Of a DNA stretch of 32,405 bases, positions 22,969 through 30,213 are shown one piece after another (position 1 is the first letter of the stretch; the number at the start of each line of letters is the position of its first letter). The position numbers and the translations under genes were made by a program. The DNA is from an uncultured Prolixibacteraceae bacterium (GTDB taxonomy: Bacteria; Bacteroidota; Bacteroidia; Bacteroidales; Prolixibacteraceae), in assembly GCA_903834475.1 (NCBI GenBank), contig CAILJH010000044.1, forward strand, positions 1 through 32,405, in the 5' to 3' direction. The notes beneath the pieces were generated by a model, which made no database searches, was not told where the DNA came from, and saw only the letters and a program-made list of their open reading frames with translations.

Positions 22969-23161
22969 TTTATGGTTTTGAAATTTTTCGAAATATAAGA
23001 AATAAAATTCCGCTAACTCCCTAAACAATTTTCTGAGTATCGTGTTTTAAAGTCAATGATTATTAAAACAACATTCAGGATCAATTTAAAGAGGATTTTA
23101 TCTTTTTATTAGCAATCGGAATAAAAAAGTCTGTTTTGTTTTCATTTAAGAAAAATAGTTC

Positions 23162-23169
23162 CATATTTG
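23162..23169 (+). promoter_or_regulatory. Weak -7-like box (CATATTTG) upstream of the leu leader
   Basis: Seven of eight match to TAnnTTTG with a TTTG at 23135-23138, 23 nt upstream, slightly further than the usual 19-21. It would start transcription near 23176, about 11 nt before the leader-peptide ATG, as expected for an attenuator. Confidence 0.35.
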
Positions 23170-23186
23170 CATCAAATTATTCAGAA

Positions 23187-23258
23187 ATGACACGTTTTGC
23201 TAACATTTCCCTTATTGGTCTTATTCTCGGTATTCTCCTAATTAGGATGCGCGATTGA
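23187..23258 (+). CDS. Leader peptide of the leu-cim operon (Ile/Leu sensor)
   Basis: A 23-codon frame, ATG to TGA. Ten of the 23 residues are branched-chain: five Ile (all ATT, at 23205, 23214, 23223, 23232 and 23241) and five Leu (CTT, CTT, CTC, CTC, CTA). There is no Val codon. The core reads NISLIGLILGILLIR. Such a composition just upstream of hairpins and a biosynthetic operon is the hallmark of ribosome-mediated attenuation: slow translation at the Ile/Leu codons signals shortage. The stop codon overlaps the antiterminator 5' arm. The mix of Ile and Leu fits an operon feeding both pathways. Confidence 0.85.
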   Translation: MTRFANISLIGLILGILLIRMRD

Positions 23259-23327
23259 GGATGGTATGGGTAAAACTATAAAGAGCTTTTAAAGGCCATT
23301 CTCGATTCAGGGGATGGCTTTTTTTTT
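23231..23327 (+). promoter_or_regulatory. Transcription attenuator with alternative hairpins and terminator
   Basis: Four arms can be drawn. Arm 1 (23231-23237, within the peptide) pairs with arm 2 as ATTCTC/GAGGAT. Arm 2 (23253-23264, GATTGAGGATGG) pairs over 12 consecutive positions, three of them G-U, with arm 3 (23296-23307, CCATTCTCGATT) to make the antiterminator. Arm 3 alternatively forms the terminator GCCATTCTC (23295-23303) with GGGGATGGC (23310-23318), six-base loop, followed by nine T (23319-23327). A ribosome at the leader stop (23256-23258) masks arm 2 and lets the terminator form; one held upstream frees arm 2. Confidence 0.85.
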
Positions 23328-23331
23328 AACA

Positions 23332-23465
23332 GCCCCTCCCTGCCCGAGGCAGGCGGGTAAATCTCCCCAAGGGGGAGACTTGAAAAAGAGGGATTATTAG
23401 ATGGTTGAATTAAATAACTGAAATGCCTTTTTAAGCCCCCTCTTTTGGAGGGGGTTGGGGGAGGC
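23332..23465 (+). repeat. G/C-rich inverted arm pair before leuA
   Basis: Left arm 23332-23379 (GCCCCTCCC ... TAAATCTCCCCAAGGGGGAG) is interrupted by a palindrome CCTGCC-cga-GGCAGG (23339-23353). Right arm 23433-23465 (AAGCCCCCTCTTTTGGAGG ... GGGGGAGGC) is its approximate reverse complement. The right arm ends 16 nt before the leuA ATG at 23482, so the leuA mRNA would carry a large stem-loop between the attenuator and the gene. Confidence 0.8.
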
Positions 23466-23481
23466 CTCTAAAATTAATATT

Positions 23482-25005
23482 ATGAGCGACAGATTGTACA
23501 TTTTCGACACCACATTACGCGACGGCGAACAAGTCCCGGGGTGTCAGTTGAACACCGTTGAGAAAATCGAAGTTGCACGTGCTTTGGAAGAATTAGGCGT
23601 CGATGTAATCGAAGCCGGTTTCCCGATTTCAAGCCCCGGCGATTTCAATTCGGTTGTAGAAATATCAAAAGCGGTTACCTGGCCAACCATTTGTGCCCTC
23701 ACCCGCGCAGTCGAAAAAGATATTGATGTAGCTGCCGAGGCCCTCAAATTCGCAAAGAAAGGACGCATTCACACTGGTATCGGAACCTCATTTTATCACA
23801 TTCATTACAAACTGAATTCCAATCAGGATGAAATTATTGAGCGTGCCATTGCTGCCGTGAAATATGCCAAACGCTATGTGGAAGATGTTGAATTCTATGC
23901 TGAAGATGCGGGCCGTACCGAAAATGAATACCTGGCCCGGGTGGTTGAAGCGGTGATCAAAGCCGGTGCTACTGTAGTAAATATTCCGGACACAACCGGA
24001 TATTGTATGCCTCATGAATTTGGTGAAAAAATTAAATTCCTGATAGACAATGTGCCCAATGTTCACAAAGCTATTTTATCGACGCATTGCCACAACGACC
24101 TGGGAATGGCTACTGCAAACACCATTGCAGGTATCATGAACGGAGCCCGTCAGGCTGAGGTTACAATTAACGGAATTGGCGAACGCGCCGGAAACACTTC
24201 GCTCGAAGAAGTAGTGATGATTCTAAAAAGCCGTTATGCGATTTTGAATATTGACACCAATATTAATACTAAAAATATTTATAAAACCAGCCGTTTGGTT
24301 TCGAACCTGATGAATATGCCGGTTCAGCCGAACAAGGCTATTGTAGGTCGCAACGCTTTTGCACATTCCTCCGGAATTCATCAGGATGGCGTGCTGAAAA
24401 ACCGCGAGAACTACGAAATCATGGATCCTTCTGATGTTGGAATCAACGAATCGAGTATCGTACTGACCGCCCGCAGCGGAAGAGCAGCTTTAAGGCATCG
24501 ACTTGAATTGATGGGTTTCGAACTGGATAAGGAAAAGCTGGACGATGTTTATGAAAAATTTGTAAAACTGGCCGATAAGAAAAAGGATATCAAAGACGAT
24601 GATGTGGCCGCCCTGTTGGGAGATGTGAGCAGGAAAGAACGCCGCGTGAAACTTGATTTCCTGCAGGTAGTTACTGGTAAAGGTTTGACTCCTATTGCCA
24701 ACGTACGGCTTAGTATTGCAGGTGAAATAATGGAAGCAACTGCATCCGGAAACGGTCCGGTTGATGCAGCCCTGAAAGCAGTGAAGAAAATCATTCACCG
24801 GAAAGTTATTCTGGAAGAATTTCTGATTCAGGCAATTAACCGTGGCAGTGACGATTTAGGTAAAGTTCACATGCAGGTCAATTACGAAGGTGGAATCTTC
24901 CATGGTTTTGGTGCAAACACCGATATTATTACTGCTTCGGTTGAAGCTTTCCTGGATGCGATCAATAAAATTCCTGCAGGAATAGCCTCCCCCAACCCCT
25001 CCTAA
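23482..25005 (+). CDS. leuA: 2-isopropylmalate synthase
   Basis: 507 residues. It condenses 3-methyl-2-oxobutanoate with acetyl-CoA, the first step of leucine synthesis. The catalytic D9-T-T-L-R13-D14-G-E-Q motif, the metal-binding H202-C-H204-N-D motif, [14 protein letters not shown] and [16 protein letters not shown] are present. The C-terminal LeuA regulatory (leucine-binding) domain spans about 390-500. I chose ATG at 23482; an upstream TTG at 23455 lies inside the repeat arm. The last codons (ASPNPS-stop) are encoded by the left arm of the next repeat, so the natural C-terminus has been replaced or extended by repeat sequence. Confidence 0.96.
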
Positions 25006-25113: not shown

Positions 25114-26508
25114 ATGAAAACTTTATTTGACAAAATTTGGGATTCGCATGTAGTGAAAGAGGTTGAAGGCGGCCCAAGTGTTTTATACATCGATCAGCAT
25201 TTGATTCACGAAGTAACCAGCCCGGTTGCATTTCTGGGATTGGAAAAACGCGGGTTGAAAGTTCTTCGTCCGGAGAAAACCATTGCCACTCCCGACCACA
25301 ACGTACCAACCATCAACCAGCACCTGAGCATTATAGACGAATTGTCGCGCAATCAGGTTGAAATGCTGAAGAAAAACTGCGCCACTCACGGCATCGTTTA
25401 TCACGGACTCGGAAGCGAAGGACATGGTGTGGTTCACATCATCGGGCCTGAAATGGGAATTACTCAGCCGGGAATGACCATTGTTTGCGGCGACAGCCAT
25501 ACTTCTACTCACGGCGCTTTCGGAGCTATCGCTTTCGGAATCGGCACCAGTGAAGTGGAAATGGTGTTTGCCAGTCAGTGCATCATGCAGCCGAAACCAA
25601 AGAAAATGCTGATCTCGGTTAATGGCAAATTAAACAAAGGTGTAACAGCCAAAGATATTGCTCTGTATGTAATTGCTCAGATTTCAACTTCAGGCGGAAC
25701 AGGCCATTTTGTGGAATTTGCCGGATCTGCAATCGAAAGTTTGTCGATGGAAGGACGTATGACGCTTTGCAACATGAGCATCGAATGTGGTGCCCGTGGC
25801 GGAATGATTGCTCCGGATCAAACGACTTTCGACTATGTGAAGGGCCGTCAGTTTGCTCCGAAAGGAGAAGACTGGGACACGGCTCTGGCTTACTGGAAAA
25901 CCCTGAAGTCGGATGCTGATGCAGTGTTCGATACTATTTATGAATATGAAGGAGCTGATATTGAGCCGATGATCACTTTTGGTACAAATCCCGGAATGGG
26001 AATCGGCATTTCTGAAAATGTTCCAAACAGCGATAAACTGACTGGTTCGGATAAACTGACCTACGAAAAATCGTTGAAATACATGGGCTACAATCAGGGT
26101 GATAAAATGGTTGGCAAGCAAATCGATTATGTTTTCGTTGGAAGTTGCACCAATGGCCGGATTGAAGATTTCCGCTCGTTTGCCCAATTTGTGAAGGGTA
26201 AAAAGAAAGCCGATAACGTGACTGCCTGGATTGTTCCCGGATCACGCGCTGTGGAGAAACAAATCATAGCTGAAGGATTGGTTGAAATACTGGAAGCTGC
26301 CGGTTTTGAACTGCGTCAGCCGGGATGTTCAGCTTGTCTGGCTATGAACGACGATAAAATTCCGGAAGGAAAATATTCGGTATCCACCTCGAACCGCAAC
26401 TTCGAAGGACGCCAGGGACCTGGAGCACGCACATTGCTTGCCAGTCCGCTAACTGCTGCTGCCGCTGCTGTGACTGGGGTGATTACTGATCCTCGGGAGT
26501 TTTTGTAA
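25114..26508 (+). CDS. leuC: 3-isopropylmalate dehydratase, large subunit
   Basis: 464 residues. With LeuD it isomerises 2-isopropylmalate to 3-isopropylmalate through an aconitase-type 4Fe-4S cluster; the three cluster cysteines are C345 (GSCTNGR), C405 and C408 (PGCSACLAM). Further motifs are [26 protein letters not shown] and [12 protein letters not shown]. Length is typical of bacterial LeuC. If the downstream citramalate synthase is active, the same enzyme would also convert citramalate to 3-methylmalate via citraconate, a known double use in other bacteria. It starts immediately after a repeat arm. Confidence 0.97.
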
Positions 26509-26699: not shown

Positions 26700-27287
26700 A
26701 TGGCATACGATAAATTTACAACATTGACATCGCCGGCAGTTCCGCTGCCTATCGAAAATATTGATACTGACCAGATTATTCCGGCCCGTTTTCTGAAGGC
26801 CGTTGAACGCAAAGGTTTTGGCGACAACCTTTTCCGCGACTGGCGTTACGATAAAAGCAGCCAGCCTATTGCTGATTTTCCGCTGAACCAATCCAAATAT
26901 TCAGGAAAAATTCTGGTTGGCGGTAAAAACTTCGGAAGTGGTTCGAGTCGCGAACATGCTGCCTGGGCTATCTACGATTATGGTTTCCGCGTGGTGGTAT
27001 CCAGTTTCTTTGCTGATATTTTTCAGGGCAATGCCTTGAACAATGGTATCCTTCCGGTGGTTGTATCTCCTGAGTTTCTGGAAAAAATATTTACGGCAAT
27101 CGAAGCCGATCAGGATACTCCATTTGAGGTTGATCTTCAGAATCAGAAATTCACTATTTGTGCCTCCGGTGAATCAATTGGTTTTGATATCAATCCGTAC
27201 AAAAAACATTGCCTGACACACGGACTTGACGACATCGATTACCTCGTGAGTATGAAAGAGGAAATCGCAGCGTTTGAAACAAAATAA
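26700..27287 (+). CDS. leuD: 3-isopropylmalate dehydratase, small subunit
   Basis: 195 residues, the swivel domain that completes the LeuCD isomerase. The N-terminal [13 protein letters not shown] motif (20-32) and, near residue 80, [18 protein letters not shown] are the substrate-binding signatures; the C-terminal [20 protein letters not shown] is also conserved. All are intact. It belongs to the short bacterial type that works with a separate LeuC. It lies between two repeat-bearing junctions in the order leuC-leuD-cimA. Confidence 0.97.
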
Positions 27288-27288
27288 A

Positions 27289-27416
27289 AAGCCTCCCCCA
27301 ACCCCTCCAAAGGAGGGGAGAAAAAAGGCATATTGTATGAATTAGATTGAAAAAATGAATAACAATGCAAACCACTTCTTTCTCCTCACCCTTCGGGGGA
27401 GGCAGGGAGGGGGCTT
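27289..27416 (+). repeat. G/C-rich inverted arm pair, leuD-cimA junction
   Basis: Left arm 27289-27320 (GCCTCCCCCAACCCCTCC-aa-AGGAGGGGAG) starts 2 nt after the leuD stop. Right arm 27382-27416 (CACCCTTCGGGGGAGG ... GGAGGGGGCTTC) ends 11 nt before the cimA ATG. The left arm itself folds into a CCCCTCC/GGAGGGG hairpin. Confidence 0.85.
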
Positions 27417-27427
27417 CATTTTAAATT

Positions 27428-28966
27428 ATGACAGGAAAAGTAATTGAGGTTAAAAATCAGATGCTTAGTATCATGGATACAACGCTGAGGGATGGAGAAC
27501 AGACCTCCGGTGTATCGTTTACCGACATGGAAAAGCTGAGTGTCGCCCGGATTTTACTGGAAGATGTAAAAGTTGACCGGATCGAGATTGCTTCTGCCCG
27601 CGTTTCTGACGGTGAATTTCTTGCTGCAAAACGGGTGATGGAATGGGCCAGTGAAAAAGGCCACTTGTCGAAAATTGAAATTCTGGGTTTTGTTGATGGT
27701 AAATTATCGCTCGACTGGATTAATCTGGCTGGTGGAAAAGTGCTGAATTTGCTTTGCAAAGGTTCGTACAAACACGTTACCCAGCAGCTCCGGAAAACTC
27801 CTGAACAGCATATTGAGGACATAAAAAAATCGATTCAGTATGCCGGAGAGCTTGGTATACGGGTTAATGTTTATCTCGAAGACTGGTCTAATGGCATGCG
27901 AAATTCGAAGGATTACGTTCATTTCATGGTTGGTGAATTACTGAAACTGAATATTGATCGGATCATGTTACCCGACACACTGGGAATCCTCGATCCGGAC
28001 GAAACCTATGATTTCTGTCGCGAAATGATTGAAGCATATCCGGATGCACGGTTCGACTTTCATGCTCACAATGACTATGACCTGGCATGTGCCAATGTAT
28101 TTCATGCGATCAAAGCCGGAATACGCACGGTCCATACTACGGTAAACGGGCTGGGAGAACGGGCTGGAAATGCACCGCTTTCAAGCGTAATTGCTACCGT
28201 GAAGGATCATCTTCATATGGAAACGACAGTCAATGAAAGCATGCTGAACAAAGTTTCTAAACTGGTTGAATCGTTTTCAGGAATTCGTATTCCGACAAAT
28301 AAACCGCTGATTGGTGAATTTGTGTTTACTCAATGCAGCGGCATCCATGCCGACGGTGACAGCAAAAATAATCTGTATTTCAACGATCTGCTTCCAGAGC
28401 GTTTTGGACGGACGCGCGTTTATGCACTTGGAAAAACTTCAGGAAAAGCAAACATCAAAAATAATCTGGAGGAGTTGGGCATTGAGCTCGACGCGGCTTC
28501 TTTGAAACTGGTAACCGACCGGATTATTGAACTCGGTGACCGAAAGGAAAGCGTTACCATTGAAGATCTTCCATACATTGTGGCTGATGTGCTGAATTAT
28601 GAAGATAGTGAATCGGCCATCCGACTGGTAAATTATTCTTTATCGAGTGCGATGGGACTAAAACCAACAGCAACCGTCAGTATTCAGTTAAAGGGCGAAA
28701 AATACGAAGCGACAGCTGCCGGAGACGGAATGTATGATGCGTTCATGAATGCCATTCAATCGGTATATGAATCGTTGAATAAGCCTTTTCCAAAACTTTT
28801 GGATTATTCGGTAGCAATTCCTCCGGGTGGGCAAACCGATGCATTGGTTGAAACCATGATCACATGGGACCTCGATCACGAATTCAAAACCCGCGGACTT
28901 GATTCTGACCAGACCGCTGCAGCAATAAAAGCAACCATGCGTATGTTGAATCAAATAGAAAAATAG
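27428..28966 (+). CDS. cimA: (R)-citramalate synthase, Leptospira type
   Basis: 512 residues, a second LeuA-superfamily enzyme but clearly unlike the leuA product. R21 and D22 (TLRDGEQTSG), L86 (EILGFVDG), L109 (LNLLCKG), Y149 and E151 (NVYLEDWSNG) correspond, all shifted by +5, to R16, D17, L81, L104, Y144 and E146 that I recall for Leptospira interrogans citramalate synthase, where the Leu/Tyr pocket selects pyruvate. Metal histidines are in DFHAHNDYD and a C-terminal regulatory domain (about 390-505) is present. It should condense pyruvate and acetyl-CoA to citramalate, which LeuCD and LeuB then turn into 2-oxobutyrate for isoleucine. A second isopropylmalate synthase is the less likely alternative. 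Confidence 0.82.
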   Translation: MTGKVIEVKNQMLSIMDTTLRDGEQTSGVSFTDMEKLSVARILLEDVKVDRIEIASARVSDGEFLAAKRVMEWASEKGHLSKIEILGFVDGKLSLDWINLAGGKVLNLLCKGSYKHVTQQLRKTPEQHIEDIKKSIQYAGELGIRVNVYLEDWSNGMRNSKDYVHFMVGELLKLNIDRIMLPDTLGILDPDETYDFCREMIEAYPDARFDFHAHNDYDLACANVFHAIKAGIRTVHTTVNGLGERAGNAPLSSVIATVKDHLHMETTVNESMLNKVSKLVESFSGIRIPTNKPLIGEFVFTQCSGIHADGDSKNNLYFNDLLPERFGRTRVYALGKTSGKANIKNNLEELGIELDAASLKLVTDRIIELGDRKESVTIEDLPYIVADVLNYEDSESAIRLVNYSLSSAMGLKPTATVSIQLKGEKYEATAAGDGMYDAFMNAIQSVYESLNKPFPKLLDYSVAIPPGGQTDALVETMITWDLDHEFKTRGLDSDQTAAAIKATMRMLNQIEK

Positions 28967-29148: not shown

Positions 29149-30213
29149 ATGAAACTCAAATTAGCCATTCTTCCCGGCGACGGGATCGGACCTGAAATCA
29201 TAGAACAGGCCATGAAAGTAGTCAAGGCGATAGCCACCAAATTTAACCACGAATTGGAATACGAATATGCACTGACTGGTGCTTGCGCGATCGACGAATT
29301 TGGCGCTCCGTATCCTGATTCAACTCACGAATTGTGCATGCAGGCTGATGCTGTACTTTTTGGCGCCATTGGCGATCCGAAATATGACAACAACCCGAAA
29401 GCAACAGTTCGTCCGGAGCAGGGTTTGCTACTGATGCGCAAAAAGCTTGGTCTGTATGCCAACATTCGCCCGGTAGTTACTTTTCCTTCCTTATTACACA
29501 AATCACCGCTACGTCGCGAGTTGATTGAAGGTGCAGATTTTGTGGCGATCCGCGAATTAACCGGCGGTATCTATTTTGGCGAAAGAGGCCGTCTGGACAA
29601 TGGAAATACAGCTTTCGATACTTGCACTTACACGCGTGTTGAGGTGGAGCGTATCCTGAAACTGGCTTACGAATATGCCATGAAACGCAGGAAAAAGCTA
29701 ACCGTAGTTGACAAAGCCAACGTGTTGGAGAGTTCACGTTTATGGAGAGAAATTGCACAGGAAATGGCTCCTACATATCCGGAAGTAACCACCGAATATA
29801 TGTTTGTTGACAACGCTGCCATGAGGATTATTCAGTGGCCGAAGGACTTTGATGTCATGGTAACCGAGAATTTATTTGGCGATATCCTGACTGACGAAGC
29901 CAGCGTAATTACCGGTTCATTGGGATTGTCACCATCGGCTTCTATCGGAATTCACACCTCGGTGTTCGAACCCATTCACGGTTCATATCCACAGGCTGCC
30001 GGAAAGAATATTGCCAATCCGGTTGCAACCATTTTGTCGGCTGCCATGATGTTCGAATATGCCTTCGATCTTCAGGCTGAAGGCGCTATCATCCGTAAAG
30101 CAGTAGATGCTTCACTCGATGCCAATGTGGTAACTGTTGACATTGCAGTTGATAAATCGTATTCAACTTCGGAAGTAGGCGACTGGATTGCCGAGTGGGT
30201 TTCTAAAAATTAA
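29149..30213 (+). CDS. leuB: 3-isopropylmalate dehydrogenase
   Basis: 354 residues. It oxidatively decarboxylates 3-isopropylmalate with NAD+ to 2-oxoisocaproate, the precursor of leucine; it can also act on 3-methylmalate in the citramalate route. Motifs: [10 protein letters not shown] at the N-terminus, the substrate-binding [22 protein letters not shown], the [13 protein letters not shown] segment, [13 protein letters not shown], the metal aspartates in [12 protein letters not shown] and [20 protein letters not shown], and the nucleotide loop [19 protein letters not shown]. Complete, last gene of the operon; a repeat pair follows. Confidence 0.97.

Follow-up and report, generated by a model that had tools for sequence, protein, structure and literature searches.

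A predicted ribosome-mediated attenuator with isoleucine and leucine codons upstream of leuA in a Prolixibacteraceae bacterium, and its counterparts in the Bacteroidales

Leader-peptide attenuation, and the way in which it acts on the enterobacterial leu, ilv, his, and trp operons, is textbook knowledge. The question raised by the window analysed here (the whole 32,405 nucleotides of contig 44 from a draft genome that is 66% complete) is whether a stretch of approximately 140 bases, flanked by leuA and by an oppositely oriented gene for homoserine dehydrogenase, works in the same way. The named LeuA relatives closest to that of the window are mostly from Prolixibacteraceae. On the forward strand, the leu operon consists of leuA (2-isopropylmalate synthase, 23482–25005; NCBIfam TIGR00973 and NF002086), leuC (25114–26508; TIGR00170), leuD (26700–27287; TIGR00171), and leuB (29149–30213; TIGR00169), all with matches above cut-off, together with a second LeuA-like gene, a citramalate-synthase-like gene of the cimA type (27428–28966). 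The top NCBIfam match of the latter was NF042433 (Leptospira CimA, 661.8 bits, under its cut-off of 950), and its top PDB match was 3ble, the Leptospira citramalate synthase (399 bits). The anatomy, conservation, covariation, and codon logic of the leader described below are computed.

The leader peptide ORF MTRFANISLIGLILGILLIRMRD (residues 1–23; forward strand, 23187–23258) starts with the ATG at 23187–23189 and ends with the TGA at 23256–23258. Codons of the regulated amino acids are clustered in this short frame, 5 Ile and 5 Leu with no Val, so that Ile and Leu occupy 10 of the 23 codons; a recount of coordinates and codons reproduced exactly the 23-codon frame with five Ile and five Leu codons described in the first-pass annotation. 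Alignment with relatives, proposed there as a check on the Ile and Leu codons, revealed that these are kept across 19 congeners: every substitution at the ten positions still yields Ile or Leu, and one of the ten codons is missing, in frame, in 4 congener rows (L016, L019, L025, and L073). Variable leader columns in the 19 congeners number 8, 3, and 12 at codon positions 1, 2, and 3, respectively. Val is absent from the leuA leaders of all 19 genus members, 12 of 18 in the rest of the family, and 6 of 10 in the rest of the order.

Downstream of the ORF, an intrinsic terminator (23291–23327) is predicted ahead of the first structural gene. Its stem (23291–23303 with 23310–23322) has 13 pairs, the trimmed hairpin has an energy of −16.3 kcal/mol, and a run of nine T occupies 23319–23327. 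Arm 3 (23295–23307), which is part of the terminator stem, can instead pair with arm 2 (23253–23265), in which the leader stop codon lies with the sensor codons upstream; this mutually exclusive antiterminator comprises 13 contiguous pairs, including G-U, with a duplex energy of −16.8 or −18.0 kcal/mol in two duplex runs. The antiterminator is weak in 5 of the 19 congeners (L017, L023, L024, L026, and L072), with energies from −9.8 to −11.2 kcal/mol and 8–52 of 200 shuffles equally good. Arm 1 is the weakest and least supported part. In the minimum free energy (MFE) fold, a candidate 1:2 protector hairpin (23227–23236 with 23244–23254) shares just two bases with arm 2, and an alternative 1:2 pairing, ATTCTC:GAGGAT, had covariation no higher than that of shuffles.

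These arms were also folded with a ribosome mask assumed to cover approximately 12 nt beyond the A-site codon. When the RNA was taken up to arm 3 and the ribosome was masked upstream, the antiterminator folded (−17.8 or −17.3 kcal/mol); when the mask was placed on the stop codon, only −1.7 kcal/mol was left, and the terminator (−17.7 kcal/mol) was free. After arm 4 was added, the terminator was favoured in the free fold under all four masks; switching would thus rest, like the mechanism already known, on which arms are synthesized first. The first-pass annotation had placed the stop codon inside arm 2, the sensor codons upstream of it, and a nine-T terminator at the end, and the coordinates and masked folds agree with each of these. 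It had further proposed that the arms pair as 1:2, 2:3, or 3:4; the latter two pairings stand by fold and covariation, and the 1:2 pairing folds, with no covariation support.

Short hydrophobic ORFs do arise in A+T-rich intergenic DNA, and a chance ORF of this kind beside a chance terminator would produce a similar picture. We consider this reading together with counts in relatives. A detector was defined as an ATG ORF of 10–45 codons with at least 5 Ile, Leu, or Val residues amounting to at least 30%, and a terminator within 90 nt. It passed 43 of 63 real leuA upstream regions but not one of their 63 reverse complements; of three sets of 63 shuffled regions, two gave no pass and the third gave one. 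With 4 leaders added by eye (L030, which has a GTG start, L036, L038, and L055), a leader with a terminator is present upstream of 47 of the 63 leuA genes, that is to say, 19/19 in the genus, 18/26 in the other genera of the family, and 10/18 in the other families of the order; these counts leave out L001 and L009 (both the window itself), L010 (leuA 100% identical to that of the window), and L021 (upstream missing). Of the 47 leaders, 39 served to build a covariance model, which was run on 61 genomes (E ≤ 0.001; up to 49 candidates were scored in each genome). In the window's genome it found at least 2 sites, at leuA (153.4 bits) and at ilvD (66.7 bits), the leuA sites matching largely by construction and the ilvD sites being absent from the model. 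A leuA-type site was present in at least 22 of 23 genus genomes, and the remaining one, G001, had neither a site nor a LeuA match. A lack of conservation in close relatives, named in the first-pass annotation as grounds for abandoning its reading, is contradicted by these 22 genomes. Given the detector counts and this conservation across the genus, the probability that chance produced the element is close to negligible.

Ten of the 16 leuA genes without a leader were examined, and 9 of these have ilvC as the next upstream gene, with gaps of 30–277 bases. A leuA gene behind ilvC comes after an ilv cluster and has no leader of its own; in the ilvC–leuA genomes for which the region upstream of ilvD was fetched, a leader lies before ilvD in 6 of 6. 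For 7 of the 63 leuA genes, neither a leader nor ilvC was found upstream.

Covariation of both pairings in relatives, the other check that had been proposed, exceeded shuffles: 0.125 versus 0.094 for 2:3 and 0.219 versus 0.178 for 3:4. Neither score was reached in any of 500 shuffles, and both lay above slid controls, although kinship of the rows alone can raise such scores in the absence of structure. Of the 2:3 pairs in the window, the two outermost do not form in 22/38 and 28/38 rows, and the core is near-invariant; the within-family 2:3 covariation therefore depends on few pairs. A clearer test of 2:3 is the arm swap between clades, since Bacteroides-type leaders have a different arm 2/arm 3 pair from the type of the window. 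Arm 3 paired better with the arm 2 of its own clade than with that of the other clade in 19/19 and 32/37 leaders. Against the arm 2 regions of other genes, the own arm 2 was better in 16/19, 28/28, and 29/37 leaders of three leuA sets, 47/47 of ilvD, 9/9 of hisG, and 5/13 of trpE, the sets including strays (L109, L240, and one of the two leaders in each of L111, L153, and L154) as well as, in L183 and L185, an additional ORF that shares its terminator with the first. In 8 of the 13 trpE leaders, 2:3 was no better than swapped arms, and the duplex test did not resolve the trp antiterminators. Two Bacteroides fragilis loci (L153 and L154) have the leuA leader MNQSFIHILLCGIIILLAKVGGSECRA with a terminator; their arm 2, GGAAGTGAG, and arm 3, CTCACTTCC, are unlike those of the window, yet they pair with each other.

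Translation of the leader could also act without any switch between 2:3 and 3:4, for example through Rho-dependent termination, RNA decay, or reinitiation at leuA. Other kinds of leader-dependent mechanism are known, the weakness of the 1:2 arm fits such a reading, and reinitiation in Bacteroidetes peaks at a leader-to-gene distance of 11–14 bases, according to PMC4833913. The leader stop and leuA are separated by 223 bases in the window, far off this peak, and a T-tract terminator together with a mutually exclusive 2:3 pairing, both conserved and covarying, is at odds with a mechanism that needs no switch; we regard it as very unlikely. The trp/leu/ilv-type attenuation proposed in the first-pass annotation is supported by the relatives, the 2:3 and 3:4 covariation, and the conserved Ile and Leu codons, and, judged from the sequences compared here, the element of the window is very probably a classical ribosome-mediated transcription attenuator.

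Counterparts of this attenuator were found before other biosynthetic operons, each with its own codon set. Val-rich leaders with terminators lie before ilvD (L163 in the window's own genome, and L164–L202), where the Ile/Leu/Val detector passed 38 of 40 regions. A criterion for Val was passed by 36/40 ilvD versus 1/63 leuA regions, and Val residues number 165 of 774 in the 38 ilvD leaders versus 13 of 1013 in the 47 leuA leaders. Leaders with a His run (HHH) precede hisG (L223–L231) and leaders with a Trp run precede trpE (L233–L242); the His criterion was passed by 9/10 hisG versus 0/63 leuA regions, the Trp criterion by 9/10 trpE (L240 apparently being spurious) versus 0/63 leuA regions, and the Ile/Leu/Val detector by none of the 10 hisG and none of the 10 trpE regions. 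In the genome to which the window belongs, ilvD is preceded by MKNISIISLVIVSVVVLLQAE and trpE by a leader with WWW; a search of this incomplete assembly found no hisG. The leader codons thus agree, almost without crossover, with the products of the operon: Ile and Leu for leuA, Val in addition for ilvD, His for hisG, and Trp for trpE. We regard this near-diagonal codon table as the best indication that selection of codons by identity persists in what would be a sensor.

The same table bears on whether a constitutive terminator or a riboswitch-like metabolite sensor, with the short ORF incidental, could account for the element. The terminator is indeed strong by itself; however, Ile and Leu identity is conserved at the level of codons, the codon set varies with the operon, and no Rfam riboswitch matched in the window, which makes this account extremely unlikely. 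Attenuation by the ribosome on operon-matched codons probably extends further: we consider it likely that the leu, ilv, his, and trp operons are controlled throughout the Bacteroidales by ribosome-mediated attenuators, with codons rewired to the product set and sometimes, at ilvD and trpE, with two units in series. Two leader and terminator units in series were detected by script in 7 of 40 ilvD regions (L173, L174, L175, L178, L180, L186, and L188) and 4 of 10 trpE regions (L234–L237), and by eye before the trpE of the window's own genome (L233). They may be compared with the tandem attenuators of Salmonella mgtCBR, which have two serial leader ORFs (PMC3641672), respond to other signals, and serve another operon; upstream of leuA in the window there is just one unit.

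Outside the order, the branched-chain leaders thin out. In the leuA upstream regions at 20 of 28 listed near-LeuA places (window included), a leader was present in 3/3 of the same order and 0/17 of other orders, and the detector matched 5 of 20 ilvD regions of other orders, of which L262 is apparently spurious. By these counts, the predicted leaders of branched-chain operons belong mainly to this order. At named loci, the detector matched 50 of 79 regions (L109 apparently being spurious), L099 of the 80 being left out because its upstream sequence was too short, and some of these loci coming from the same genomes as the relatives counted above.

Transcription would have to begin upstream of the leader for the terminator to matter. 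A sigma-70 promoter scan of the window found none on the forward strand, and a Bacteroidota-type box was therefore looked for. The motif [TC]AnnTTTG, which we take to be the −7 consensus of Bacteroidota-type promoters, occurs 14–45 nt upstream of 40 of the 47 leaders (19/19 in the genus) versus 72 of 2350 shuffles. In the window, the candidate −7 box is CATATTTG (forward strand, 23162–23169), which starts 25 nt 5′ of the leader ATG, and TTTTCATTT (forward strand, 23139–23147) is a candidate upstream (−33) element, with a similar spacing kept, by eye, in the genus and many leaders of the family. The terminator end is only approximately 40 bases from leuA in several relatives. Given this short gap and the −7-like box upstream of the leader, leuA transcripts probably pass through the leader and terminator. 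The terminator–leuA gap of the window (23328–23480) is repeat-like, and pieces of it occur at 24 further genomic places, including one in the window on the opposite strand (27291–27331); a search for a phage match found none. In view of the short gap in those relatives, this stretch may be an insertion.

The proposed mechanism is as follows. RNA polymerase would begin just 5′ of the leader ORF, with a ribosome behind it. When charged tRNA-Ile and tRNA-Leu are ample, the ribosome would reach the stop codon and cover arm 2, the 3:4 terminator would form, and transcription would end at about 23327. A shortage of either charged tRNA would stall the ribosome at an Ile or Leu codon, 2:3 would pair, no terminator would form, and the 5 genes leuA, leuC, leuD, the cimA-like gene, and leuB would be transcribed together. 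We infer that leuA serves leucine, the citramalate-synthase-like gene isoleucine, and leuCDB both; both Ile and Leu are probably sensed because the operon supplies both. Two observations run counter to this explanation of the Ile codons: in G052, the leuA leader is Ile-rich and the cimA-like gene lies on another contig, and there are threonine-deaminase-like matches, which are below cut-off.

The enterobacterial leu, ilv, his, and trp attenuators (RF00512 and kin) share with the element of the window a leader rich in the regulated residues, a stop codon in arm 2, an antiterminator competing with a terminator, a T tract, and placement upstream of the first gene for biosynthesis. Unlike them, the window has a candidate Bacteroidota-type promoter and a poorly supported arm 1; unlike RF00512, it has Ile and Leu codons and not a Leu run, and no sequence–structure match to that family. 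Nothing in the window reached an Rfam gathering score, and RF00512 (Leu_leader) was not among the 15 window matches at E ≤ 10. Weak matches to PyrR, Qrr, Phe_leader, and others were rejected as far under their cut-offs. Among nine leader loci searched in Rfam, nothing reached gathering except rRNA in L153, and L230, L231, and L233–L235 gave no leader match. Attenuators of the Bacteroidetes/Chlorobi were reportedly mentioned by Vitreschak et al. in 2004. Clues to leader-peptide attenuation upstream of amino-acid biosynthesis operons have been described in Flavobacterium psychrophilum, of the same phylum (PMC9723704), the relevant main-text section of which mentions neither a leu leader nor any codon set or arms. 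According to PMC2864571, the Bacteroid-trp motif RF01692 is probably a cis-regulatory RNA in Bacteroidetes; none of the 3 trpE leaders L233–L235 reached its gathering score. Short ORFs of B. thetaiotaomicron are called “reminiscent of leader peptides” in PMC7366714, and further background is given in PMC3766115 and PMC1262725. The first-pass annotation described such leaders as rarely annotated in Bacteroidota; the one in the window is part of a set widespread in relatives and is not confined to its genome, and attenuation-like leaders of the phylum are mentioned in print (PMC9723704). Our search, which covered few subscription journals, found no publication on the leuA leader of the window. 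The mechanism is a known one, and the interest lies in its breadth in the Bacteroidales and in the codon sets matched to operons.

A conserved, product-matched set in the Bacteroidales, including the leuA leader of Bacteroides fragilis, suggests that such attenuators arose independently or have a far wider origin. The leader codons would provide a rule for locating the heads of operons and predicting the amino acids that they make. Since attenuation requires the ribosome and the polymerase to move in step, an order-wide set, if true, would be genomic evidence that transcription and translation are coupled in this phylum, which lacks Shine-Dalgarno sequences, and the leaders would be genetic handles on this question in tractable gut bacteria.
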